A DNA stretch of 64,000 bases from Stigmatella ashevillena. GTDB taxonomy: Bacteria; Myxococcota; Myxococcia; Myxococcales; Myxococcaceae. A program made the translations under genes and the position numbers. The stretch covers positions 372,001 through 436,000 of the forward strand of contig NZ_JAQNDM010000002.1 in the NCBI RefSeq assembly GCF_028368975.1, read 5' to 3'. Of this stretch, positions 23,216-26,926 are shown piece after piece. The notes beneath the pieces are model-generated. The model saw nothing but the letters and a program-made list of their open reading frames with translations. It did not search any database and was not told the DNA's origin. Every line of letters begins with the position of its first letter. The stretch's first letter is position 1.

Positions 23216-24097
23216 TCAACTCACCACGGGAAGCGGAAAGCCCTGCGAGGGCTTCCCCACTCCCGCGGCCTCGTTCATGCGGCCCGAGCGGAACGGCTCG
23301 AGATCCAACGCCACGAACTGGAAGCCCAGGGCCTTGAGCGCGCGGTTGATCTCCAGCCGCACGTCGGCCGCCAGGAACCGGCCATACTCCTCTTCCGCCA
23401 ACTCCAGCCGCGCCACCTGCTCGTGGTAGCGGACGCGGAACTGGCGGAAGCCCAGCCGGCGCAGCTCGGACTCCGCGCGGGCGATCTGGAACAAGCGCTC
23501 GCGCGTCACCGAGGTGCCGTAAGGAATCCGCGAGGCCAGGCAGGCCATCTGCGGCTTGTCCCAGGTGGGCAGTCCCAGGTGGTGGCTCCACGCGCGGATC
23601 TCGTCCTTGGTGAGCCCCGCCTTCGCCAGCGGAGACTGGACGTGGTGCTCCTGGGCGGCCTTGTGCCCCGGACGGTGATCCTTGAAGTCGTCCGCGTTGA
23701 AGCCGTCCAGCACCACCGCGTAGTCCAGCGCCTGACGCCGGGCCTCGCACAAGTCGTACAGCTCCGTCTTGCAGAAGTAGCAGCGGTTGGTGGGGTTTGC
23801 CGCGTACTGGGGATTGGCCAGCTCGTTGCTCGTCAGCACCTCGTGGCGGGCGCCGAAGCGAGCGGCCAGCTCGCGCGCCTCCTGCTCCTCCTCGGGGGCC
23901 ACCGACGCGGAGAGCGCCGTCACCGCCAGCGCTCGCTCACCCAGCTCCTCGACGGCGATCTTCAGGACGAAGGTGGAGTCCACCCCGCCGGAGAACGCGA
24001 CCAGCGCCGTGCCATGGGCTCGGATCGCCGCGCGCATGGCCTCCAGCTTGGGACGGGAGGAGTCGCACAGGGCCTGGATCCGTTCGGGGCTCAGCAT
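23216..24097 (-). CDS. larE: ATP-dependent sacrificial sulfur transferase LarE
   Basis: This 293-aa enzyme starts at ATG 24097 after TAGGAG. The PP-loop 'FSGGVDSTFVLK' is at residues 35-46. Cysteines in 'NRCYFCKTELY' (C106, C109) and 'MACLASRIPYGTSVT' (C186) are at the family positions; C186 matches the sulfur-donating cysteine of the Lactobacillus enzyme, and the three-Cys set resembles LarE proteins reported to use a [4Fe-4S] cluster. LarE sulfurises the nicotinic acid-derived cofactor of lactate racemase. LarB, LarC and LarA are not in the window, so the substrate here is uncertain. Located among other sulfur genes. Confidence 0.88.
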   Translation of the reverse strand: MLSPERIQALCDSSRPKLEAMRAAIRAHGTALVAFSGGVDSTFVLKIAVEELGERALAVTALSASVAPEEEQEARELAARFGARHEVLTSNELANPQYAANPTNRCYFCKTELYDLCEARRQALDYAVVLDGFNADDFKDHRPGHKAAQEHHVQSPLAKAGLTKDEIRAWSHHLGLPTWDKPQMACLASRIPYGTSVTRERLFQIARAESELRRLGFRQFRVRYHEQVARLELAEEEYGRFLAADVRLEINRALKALGFQFVALDLEPFRSGRMNEAAGVGKPSQGFPLPVVS

Positions 24098-24195: not shown

Positions 24196-24906
24196 CTACT
24201 TGCGCTTCGCGCCCTTCTTGGTGCTGGTGGGCTTGGCCACGCGGGCCGCGCGGGTGGCCGGCCGGGACTTGGTGCCCTTGCCGGGCTTGTCGGCCTTGGG
24301 CTCGACGCGGCGCGCCTTCTTGGGCTGGGGGTTGGCCTTCATCTTCTTGCCGGTGATGATCTTCAGCTCCTCGGAGGTCATGTAGCCGAGGTCCAGCAGG
24401 GCCTGGAAGATCTTCGCGGCGCCATCCTCCACGCTCTCGGTGTCCGAGTGGATCGTCACCTCGGGAGACGTGGGCGGCTCGTACGGCTCGGTGATTCCAA
24501 TGAAGTTGGGGATCTCCCCGCTGAGGGCCTTCTTGTACTTGCCCGTGGAGTCGCGCTCGATCAGCGTCTCGGTCGGACAGTCGACGTAGACCTCGACATA
24601 GCGGCCAATGGTCCGGCGGTTCTCCTCGCGGACACTCTTGTAGGGGCTCACGCAGGGCACGAGCACCGCGACATTGTTGCGCGCCAGCAGCTGGGCCACA
24701 TAGCCGACCCGGCGCACGATGATGGAGCGCTCTTCCTTGCTGTCGCCCAGTCCCTGCCAGAGCTCCTGGCCAATCTCTCCCTCGTCCAGGGTCTCCACGT
24801 GGCGGCCCACCTGACGCAGCCGTGCGGAAATGTAGGCGGCGATGGTGCTCTTCCCGGTGCCATGCATGCCGGTCAGCCAAAGCGTGAAACCAGTGGTGCT
24901 GGGCAT
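24196..24906 (-). CDS. CysC-like adenylylsulfate kinase with a basic histone-like tail
   Basis: The 236-aa protein starts most likely at ATG 24906 (GGGAG upstream); in-frame ATGs at 24948 and 24966 would add up to 20 residues. The P-loop 'LTGMHGTGKSTIAAY' (residues 11-25) and 'VLVPCVSPYKSVREENRR' with 'YVEVYVDCPTETLIERD' match APS kinases, which phosphorylate adenosine 5'-phosphosulfate to PAPS. The DGDxxR motif is altered to 'LDEGEIGQEL', so substrate use may differ. Residues about 192-236 form a Lys/Arg/Pro/Ala tail ('KKMKANPQPKKARRVEPKAD') absent from normal CysC; it resembles histone H1 or HMGA-like tails. Confidence 0.75.
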   Translation of the reverse strand: MPSTTGFTLWLTGMHGTGKSTIAAYISARLRQVGRHVETLDEGEIGQELWQGLGDSKEERSIIVRRVGYVAQLLARNNVAVLVPCVSPYKSVREENRRTIGRYVEVYVDCPTETLIERDSTGKYKKALSGEIPNFIGITEPYEPPTSPEVTIHSDTESVEDGAAKIFQALLDLGYMTSEELKIITGKKMKANPQPKKARRVEPKADKPGKGTKSRPATRAARVAKPTSTKKGAKRK

Positions 24907-25085: not shown

Positions 25086-25547
25086 CTACAGCGGAACCCC
25101 CCGATCCTGAAATTCTCCCTCCCGCCACCAATAGATCCGGGCCTCATGGGCCTGTCCTCGTTCCACGTTGACTACAAGGTAGGATACTTCTGGCAGCAGA
25201 GGAATTCCTCCGGGGGCGGCTGCCTGGCGGTCCTCGGCCGACAGCACGGCCACCCCATCGATGTGCGAGTGGAACACACACGCAATCTGTTCGTTCCGGG
25301 CATCCGCCTCCCGGTTCAGCGCCAGCCACTCCCGGGGCTCGAACAGAAAGGCGGTGCGGGCGGAGTGGGGAAAACGCCGGGGATCCGCCGCGTGGTACCG
25401 ATCATAGGCGTTGGGGAGGCACCGGACGCGCCAAGGTCCCCAGGGCCCCGCGCGAAGAAGCACCCCGCAGCCCTCCTGGGGGTAGCAGGCCTCCAGGTGC
25501 CGGAGGACTTCCGAGAGGTCCTCGGGCAGCGCGTCGCTCACCGGCAT
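25086..25547 (-). CDS. JAB/MPN (JAMM) metallopeptidase, Mec-like
   Basis: This 153-aa protein starts at ATG 25547, inside the end of the preceding gene (10-bp overlap). The JAMM motif is perfect: Glu25 in 'PQEGCGVLL', His93 and His95 in 'VFHSHID', then Ser103 and Asp106 in 'LSAEDRQ'. In actinobacteria the homologue Mec+ releases cysteine from the carrier protein CysO. Being the last gene of an operon with a CysO-like carrier, the same job (cleaving after the Gly-Gly tail) is the best inference. It could also remove the carrier from proteins. Confidence 0.85.
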   Translation of the reverse strand: MPVSDALPEDLSEVLRHLEACYPQEGCGVLLRAGPWGPWRVRCLPNAYDRYHAADPRRFPHSARTAFLFEPREWLALNREADARNEQIACVFHSHIDGVAVLSAEDRQAAAPGGIPLLPEVSYLVVNVERGQAHEARIYWWREGEFQDRGVPL

Positions 25548-25933
25548 CGGGCGCAGCGCCGCAGCACCATGTCCACCACCTGCCCAGGTGCCAGGCACCA
25601 CCGGCCCCCCAGCGCGGGCCCCTGCCCGCGTTGCAGCCGCTGAAAAACCAGCGCCCCGAGCGCTCCCAGCGCCAGTCCCAAGACCCCCGTGGGAGGGGGC
25701 CCCAGCGTTCGGACCGTCTCCCCAAAACACCACACGCACCCGGCGTCTCCCCGGAATACCACCCCTCCCCGCTGGCCATCTCCCCCCAGCGCCACCCAAG
25801 GGGCCTCTCCTCCCCAGGCGGCGGGCAGCTCGGCCAGCCGGCCCTCGGCTTCGGGCCCCAAGGCGTCCAGATAGGCGAAGGCCGTGCGCCCCGCAGGCCC
25901 GGCGCCTTCCCGCCGCGGTCCCTTCGGCGCCAC
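25538..25933 (-). CDS. Truncated E1-like protein: zinc domain of a ThiF/MoeB-type enzyme without the ATP-binding half
   Basis: The 131-aa product starts at GTG 25933, with its ribosome site AGGAGGG inside the last codons of the carrier gene. Its C-terminal two thirds align by eye with E1 enzymes: 'GDGQRGGVVFRGDAGCVWCF' matches the strand before the first CxxC, 'PTGVLGLALGALGALVFQRL' matches the helix that lines the E1 dimer, and 'RRCARC' supplies the second CxxC (C66/C69, C127/C130). The Rossmann GxGGxG nucleotide site is absent and there is no room for it upstream. It may pair with the full ThiF-like protein as a non-catalytic subunit; this is inference. Confidence 0.65.
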   Translation of the reverse strand: MAPKGPRREGAGPAGRTAFAYLDALGPEAEGRLAELPAAWGGEAPWVALGGDGQRGGVVFRGDAGCVWCFGETVRTLGPPPTGVLGLALGALGALVFQRLQRGQGPALGGRWCLAPGQVVDMVLRRCARCR

Positions 25934-25937
25934 CGCC

Positions 25938-26210
25938 CTACCCTCCTGCCATGGCGGCGATGAGGGTCAGCCGGTCCGAATCCTTCACGGGCGTCTCCAG
26001 GTCCTGGAGGCCGCGGATGTCCTCGTCGTTGTGGAAGACGTTCACGTAGCGGCGGAGCGCGCCTTTGCCGTCGAGCAGGCGCGGGCCAATCCCTGGAAAG
26101 CGCTTCTCCAGATCGCTCAGCACTTCCCCCACGGTCGCCCCCTGCGCCTGCACCTCGCCCTGGTTCCGGGTGAAGCCCCTCAGGGGCGTGGGGATGTGGA
26201 CCTTCGCCAT
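25938..26210 (-). CDS. CysO-like ubiquitin-fold sulfur carrier (MoaD/ThiS family)
   Basis: This 90-aa protein starts at ATG 26210, two bases after the ThiF stop. It ends in Gly-Gly (residues 89-90, 'LIAAMAGG'), the activation site of this family. 'VHIPTPLRGFT', 'VLSDLEKRFPGIGPRLLD', 'LRRYVNVFHNDEDIR' and 'DSDRLTLIAAMAGG' resemble CysO of Mycobacterium more than MoaD or ThiS. CysO is activated by an E1, thiocarboxylated, and donates sulfur to O-phosphoserine via CysM to make cysteine. The E1 and peptidase partners are adjacent; cysM is not in the window. Confidence 0.85.
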   Translation of the reverse strand: MAKVHIPTPLRGFTRNQGEVQAQGATVGEVLSDLEKRFPGIGPRLLDGKGALRRYVNVFHNDEDIRGLQDLETPVKDSDRLTLIAAMAGG

Positions 26211-26212
26211 GC

Positions 26213-26926
26213 TCAGCTCCCGTGCTCGGTGAGCCCCGGCCATCTGCCAGGGGCACAGCTGGGACAGTCCGGCTCACGGCGCACGCGCACCGCCCGCCCC
26301 TCGAGCGCCTCTCCATCAAAGACGTGCAGCAGGGCCTCGTCCCGGGCCAACCCGGCTTCCCCCGTGAGCCGCTCCAGTGCCAGCATCGCCTGGACCGTGC
26401 CCACCCACCCCATAAGGGGGCCCGGCACGTCCTCCCGTGCCATCGGAGGAGCGGCGCTGGGCGAAGGCGGCGCCTTGTAGAAACAGCGCAGGCACGGTCC
26501 TTCCGGATCCACGCGCAGGGCTTGCCCCTGCATGCGCAGCACGCTCCCATGCACGAGCGGCACGCCCGTGAGCACCGCCACGTCCGACAGGAAGAACGGG
26601 GTGAGCGTGCCACCGGTGGCATCGATGACCAGCTCGTGCGAGCGGAAGAGCGCCTCGGCGTTGTCCGCGTTCACCCGCTCGGTGAGCGCCTCGGTGCTCA
26701 GGCCCGGAAAGGTCCGCGCCAGGCCCTCGGCGGCGGACTCCGCCCTCGGCCGACCCTCGTCCGAGGGGCGATGCCAGATCGGCTGGGGGAGGCGGGTGCT
26801 GTCCACCCGGTCTGGATCCACCAGCGTCAGGTGCCCCACCCCCGCGTGCGCCAGCGCGAGCGCGGCCGGGCACCCCAGGCCTCCCGCCCCCACGACCAGC
26901 ACCCGCGCTTCCGGTAGGTGGCTCAC
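26213..26926 (-). CDS. ThiF/MoeB-type E1 adenylyltransferase
   Basis: The 237-aa protein starts at ATG 26926. It has the E1 nucleotide-binding motif 'VLVVGAGGLGCPAALALA' (residues 9-26), acidic 'LVDPDRVDSTRLPQ', Asp102 in 'VIDATGG', and two zinc CxxC pairs (C145/C148 and C221/C224). It should adenylate the Gly-Gly tail of the CysO-like carrier in the next gene. It is shorter than MoeB: the N-terminal helix with the Arg finger is missing, the usual Lys is Arg ('EGRPRAESA'), and there is no rhodanese domain. First gene of the four-gene operon 26926-25086. Confidence 0.85.
   Translation of the reverse strand: MSHLPEARVLVVGAGGLGCPAALALAHAGVGHLTLVDPDRVDSTRLPQPIWHRPSDEGRPRAESAAEGLARTFPGLSTEALTERVNADNAEALFRSHELVIDATGGTLTPFFLSDVAVLTGVPLVHGSVLRMQGQALRVDPEGPCLRCFYKAPPSPSAAPPMAREDVPGPLMGWVGTVQAMLALERLTGEAGLARDEALLHVFDGEALEGRAVRVRREPDCPSCAPGRWPGLTEHGS

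Follow-up and report, generated by a model that had tools for sequence, protein, structure and literature searches.

In the window, the 64,000-nucleotide stretch of Stigmatella ashevillena DNA analysed here, four minus-strand open reading frames (26926–25086), each overlapping or abutting its neighbour, encode relatives of a ubiquitin-like sulfur carrier, of E1 activating enzymes and of a JAMM peptidase. The locus raises the question whether these genes form a working sulfur-transfer system and, if not, what charges the carrier. A preliminary description had reported four tightly overlapping genes, and this arrangement was verified. Since homologues kept the same order across dozens of genomes and dN/dS was below 1 for all four genes between the window genome (G000) and G078, the four frames were not regarded as chance. 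G077, G078 and G079 are of the same genus or clade as the window genome. We consider it probable that the locus is a remnant of an E1a–TusA–carrier–E1b–JAMM operon in which the E1 is now dead, the carrier most likely being charged in trans by a rhodanese–MoeB protein and the JAMM peptidase releasing the product or recycling the carrier.

Carrier and JAMM peptidase

The second gene (25938–26210, minus strand) encoded a CysO-like sulfur carrier of 90 aa with a ubiquitin fold, recognised with PF02597 (ThiS family, 52.1 bits) and phmmer. Its C-terminus read AAMAGG, with no extension. The best solved match was M. tuberculosis CysO (3dwg_C, 1.4e-18), and the ThiS/MoaD-family protein 4n6e_B was matched at 1.7e-18. 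The fold, the terminal Gly-Gly and the CysO-type proteins as nearest solved relatives bear out the earlier assignment as a CysO-like carrier ending in Gly-Gly. Grouping with cofactor carriers of the MoaD/ThiS type had been named as the result that would speak against it. This candidate was rejected: CysO was closest, no cofactor genes adjoined the carrier gene among the Pfam and TIGR matches, which places it outside a molybdopterin or thiamine cluster, and MoaD was encoded separately, as a MoaD–MoaE fusion that was the sole other ThiS-family place in the genome. In several deeper lineages with CysM, the carrier extended one or two residues past the Gly-Gly (GGR, GGC, GGAR); judging from these termini, the JAMM peptidase would have to trim them.

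The fourth gene (25086–25547, minus strand), whose start overlaps the end of the third, encoded a JAMM/Mec+-like metallopeptidase (PF14464, Prok-JAB, 54.6 bits). The motif table showed an intact set, comprising the glutamate (EGCG) and HSHIDGVAVLSAED, in the pattern HxH-x7-S-x2-D (HSH in the window), as the preliminary description had it. Elsewhere, the JAMM protein of one locus (L089, G076) had no recognisable HxH-x7-S-x2-D although E1a, E1b and TusA were intact, and at L091_21 (G086) E1b and JAMM shared a single open frame of 379 aa, possibly a natural fusion.

E1 genes of the window and of its relatives

The first gene (26213–26926, minus strand) encoded E1a, a ThiF/MoeB-like Rossmann protein of 237 aa. 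The earlier assignment as an E1-like ThiF held for the fold (PF00899, 162.5 bits over 3–222; ThiF profile positions 17–237) but not for the active site. In the alignment and in a residue table comparing window E1a with 33 relatives (E. coli MoeB numbering), GxGGxG, four zinc-type cysteines and D62 were retained, whereas R73Q, K86R and D130G substitutions had occurred and the catalytic-loop Cys187 of MoeB aligned with methionine (C187M). The N-terminal Arg-finger helix, bearing the equivalent of MoeB R14, was absent, as previously described. Judged by these residues, window E1a appears to be a catalytically dead E1 subunit, and the case is a warning that a ThiF annotation need not mean an active E1. 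An AlphaFold model of window E1a built with 6 close homologues was uninformative (pLDDT 35.6).

In relatives, the two E1-like genes proved complementary. Their E1a proteins had the catalytic cysteine. Of the 30 relatives whose E1a is split, 29 kept all of D62, R73, K86 and D130; the exception was G078 (D62A, R73H, D130G, C187G). None of the 30 carried the Arg14 helix. Instead, intact E1b of relatives (~205 aa) began with MALREDQILRYSRQILL, which aligned with the MoeB N-terminal helix bearing Arg14, and had no ATP site; full-length E1b with this helix was found in 54 genomes. Intact E1a covered Pfam ThiF positions 17–237 and intact E1b positions 1–43. A model of one relative's E1b (mean pLDDT 86.9) gave TM scores of 0.71–0.73 to ThiF and MoeB structures. 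Since the MoeB-like helix lies on E1b and the ATP site on E1a, the E1 is divided into an ATP-site and an Arg-finger subunit. From these complementary elements on two linked genes, we infer that E1a and E1b of the relatives form an asymmetric heterodimer. Three more distant genomes (G018, G024 and G145) encoded a single-chain E1 with all elements.

The third gene of the window (25538–25933, minus strand; 131 aa) is the C-terminal remnant of such an Arg-finger subunit, as identified by the E1b profile and alignment. It kept the cysteine pairs CVWC...CARC but had lost the RYSRQ helix along with a section of its middle. Profile coverage was 95–203 in the window and 31–203 in G078, compared with 1–203 in 54 relatives, and unbroken E1b genes without the Arg-finger helix occurred in these two genomes only. 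The preliminary description had taken this gene for a zinc-only E1 paralogue and for an added subunit; it is rather the truncated second half of a split E1. Of the profile searches it had proposed, ThiF, ThiS and Prok-JAB models matched genes 1, 2 and 4, and Pfam gave no match for gene 3. A frameshift or assembly error behind the truncation was rejected, since the helix is missing from a separate genome too, G078, which has D130G in common with the window.

E. coli MoeB and ThiF resemble the divided E1 in fold and in the catalytic residues found in relatives' E1a, and in the N-terminal helix found in E1b, but they are homodimers with all elements on one chain. E1s composed of two related subunits are familiar from eukaryotes, and a halved bacterial E1 would bear on their origin: the E1s of the ubiquitin world are believed to descend from homodimeric bacterial enzymes like MoeB that later became two unequal halves. 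A bacterial pair divided likewise, in dozens of species and within a defined sulfur-transfer operon, would allow the halving step to be studied in simple proteins. Heterodimeric E1s include SAE1/UBA2, APPBP1/UBA3 and yeast Tcd1–Tcd2, and in the last of these the Arg finger of one subunit serves the ATP site of the other (PMC6031683, PMC13139853). Unlike these, E1a and E1b are bacterial, single-domain and associated with a sulfur carrier, and their dimer is deduced from genes. In ThiF, too, the Arg finger is supplied by the neighbouring subunit; the Arg finger of MoeB and ThiF has been reported to be non-essential (PMC13139853), and the split may therefore matter less than its appearance suggests.

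Ancestral operon and loss of its E1 genes

The intact family operon had the order E1a–TusA–carrier–E1b–JAMM. In a single-protein E1b scan of the genome collection, all 21 named complete loci (Hyalangium, Corallococcus, Myxococcus, Pyxidicoccus and others) contained E1a, TusA, carrier, E1b with the RYSRQ helix, JAMM and CysC. One record, L148, is named Comamonas sp. KCTC 72670 and holds a Myxococcaceae-type operon; its label is probably wrong. TusA of the relatives (PF01206, 66.9 bits) sits between E1a and the carrier. It was absent from the G078 locus and from the window, where E1a directly adjoins the carrier and the 20–32 kb interval contained no TusA gene. In deeper lineages, CysM stands between E1b and JAMM. 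A CysM-type gene lay beside JAMM at 12 deeper loci, often with a second, CysK-like gene upstream; in the tree, the CysM-type genes of the operon grouped as a single clade, and the entry nearest to it was E. coli CysM. The upstream PLP-synthase gene had no SVKDR lysine motif in G084, G085, G088, G091 and G128, and pseudoenzymes thus seem to arise repeatedly at this locus.

TusA, E1a and E1b were jointly absent, with carrier and JAMM kept, from G077/G079, G045/G047/G048 and G073–G075. G077 and G079 are nested within the window clade in the LarE tree. The tree required four changes to account for the joint absence, at least three of which were forced by well-supported branches; the three genes were lost together in at least three lineages. 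Some relatives had E1a–TusA–E1b–JAMM with no carrier at the locus, and the module's two halves are therefore separable. Lineages that have repeatedly dropped the E1 half yet retained carrier and protease offer natural experiments on E1–carrier pairing.

The operon class is already known. Classes 4b–4d of Iyer et al. 2006 combine a ThiS/MoaD-like protein, an E1 with rhodanese and a JAB protein, with or without a cysteine synthase, and Anaeromyxobacter was already listed under class 4b (PMC1779556). The family operon shares this three-part core. It differs in that a split E1 and TusA take the place of a fused rhodanese in most Myxococcales examined, and in that the E1 has decayed in the window genus. 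In the open-access literature searched, no report came up of a split bacterial E1, of TusA replacing rhodanese or of repeated loss of the E1 half. We give an even chance to a wider proposal: that Myxococcota have a split E1 of their own, an obligate heterodimer of E1a (ATP site) and E1b (Arg finger) working with TusA and a CysO-like carrier and paralleling the eukaryotic heterodimers. This E1 would then have disappeared at least three times, leaving carrier and JAMM under a housekeeping E1, and the window would show one of these losses in progress.

Selection, charging of the carrier and neighbouring genes

Between the window genome and G078 (dS about 0.3), dN/dS was 0.07 for the carrier, 0.05 for LarE and 0.08 for CysC, and 0.24, 0.26 and 0.43 for JAMM, E1b and E1a, respectively. 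Intact E1a pairs gave 0.16–0.17. The E1a value was below 1 (p about 1e-4), and constraint on E1a was clearly relaxed compared with intact pairs (p 0.003) and with its neighbours (p 1e-8). Selection therefore maintains the carrier and JAMM, whereas constraint on E1a has loosened without reaching neutrality. Since both E1 frames are still open in two species and evolve with dN/dS below 1, some function may persist, be it as a scaffold, in regulation or through coupling of JAMM translation. That E1a and E1b are pseudoenzymes with a non-catalytic job, holding the carrier for the rhodanese–MoeB protein or JAMM or acting in regulation, would also agree with the retained zinc cysteine pairs. We nonetheless think this unlikely, given the relaxation of E1a, the dissimilar later decay in the window species and G078, and the deletion of both genes in the nested sisters G077 and G079.

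In the intact operon, E1a would bind ATP and adenylate the C-terminal glycine of the carrier, with the Arg-finger helix given in trans by E1b; a persulfide from TusA would then yield the carrier thiocarboxylate, and JAMM would cut carrier adducts, ancestrally the carrier–cysteine made by CysM. In the window genome, the only complete carrier-type E1 was a rhodanese–MoeB protein with the full catalytic set (G000:C2:2579205-2579912). The loss of the local E1, the helix, TusA and operon-type CysM, with carrier and JAMM intact, argues that this protein most likely charges the carrier in trans, leaving JAMM to free the product or recycle the carrier. Precedent for this exists in MoeZR, which thiocarboxylates CysO although its gene lies apart from cysO; against it, one of the two rhodanese–MoeB-type proteins of Mycobacterium, MoeBR, was inactive on CysO (PMC3227635). 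With the CysO–CysM–Mec+ system of M. tuberculosis (plus MoeZ), the window genome shares a Gly-Gly carrier, a JAMM protein and a rhodanese-type E1 encoded elsewhere, and the deeper relatives also share a CysM-type gene. It differs in having no operon-type CysM and an E1 pair that is split and, in the window, apparently dead; its relatives differ by carrying TusA in the operon. The preliminary description's CysO-type operon is therefore apt for the carrier and the ancestry (CysO matches, 12 deeper loci with CysM), but not as a working set of E1, carrier and JAMM. Its statement that CysM and the rhodanese domain are missing from the operon stands, and operon-type CysM was not found elsewhere in the genome at E<=1e-80; a complete rhodanese-fused E1, by contrast, is encoded elsewhere.

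A working CysO/Mec+ cysteine pathway, in which the E1 at the locus activates the carrier, serine is added by a CysM encoded elsewhere and JAMM frees cysteine, was one of two functions previously suggested. The likeness of carrier and JAMM to CysO and Mec+, the CysM-type genes at the locus in deeper relatives and the presence of other PLP synthases in the window genome are in its favour. It presupposes, however, an E1a that appears dead and an E1b that is truncated. Operon-type CysM was not found in the window genome at E<=1e-80, and none of its PLP synthases fell in that clade. Because of this and of a cysE-like gene adjoining cysK elsewhere in the genome, a dedicated cysteine route is doubtful, and we regard the pathway as quite improbable. 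The other suggested function, ubiquitin-like (SAMP-type) protein conjugation with JAMM as the deconjugase, fared worse. Carrier and JAMM did score against the SAMP1 (55.2 bits) and desampylase (29.9 bits) models, but both fell under the curated cut-offs (60 and 130, respectively). For Urm1, roles in both sulfur transfer and protein modification have been described (PMC8561144). Against conjugation, the nearest solved carriers were CysO-type, sulfur transfer is the role of both ancestral partners, TusA and CysM, and the operon showed no E2-like gene. We found no positive evidence for conjugation and hold it to be very unlikely.

Beside the operon lie genes for LarE, an ATP-dependent sacrificial sulfur transferase (23216–24097, minus strand; TIGR00268, 315 bits, cut-off 150), and a CysC-like P-loop kinase (24196–24906, minus strand, with ATG at 24906 in the sequence; PF01583, 150 bits). 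Both are conserved neighbours and correspond to the LarE and CysC-like kinase noted previously. The LarE family adenylates and thiolates a carboxylate; that LarE now stands in for the E1, itself producing the thiocarboxylate of the carrier, would fit this chemistry and its position beside carrier and JAMM in every examined genome that lacks the E1, but it is equally conserved with an intact E1 and at carrier-less loci, and LarC, encoded elsewhere in the window genome, points to the usual role of LarE, so that we consider the replacement highly improbable and the function of LarE probably separate from the operon.

The CysC-like kinase reads LDEGEIGQ at the site occupied by LDGDEVRT in a second, canonical CysC, the other APS kinase of the genome (G000:C2:5065515). 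Similar variants occurred throughout the LarE-adjacent CysC-like family, and by this sequence the kinase probably has a changed substrate. Second CysO-like carriers were also encountered. At L116, L117 and L118 (G078, G077 and G079), one lay near a ThiG-family synthase (PF05690, 194 bits at L116), accompanied at L116 by a HAD phosphatase, and these clusters resemble a 2-thiosugar (BexX-type) cluster. Another, at L115 (G083), had a gene for a YcaO protein (PF02624, 233 bits) in its vicinity, along with methyltransferase-like genes.
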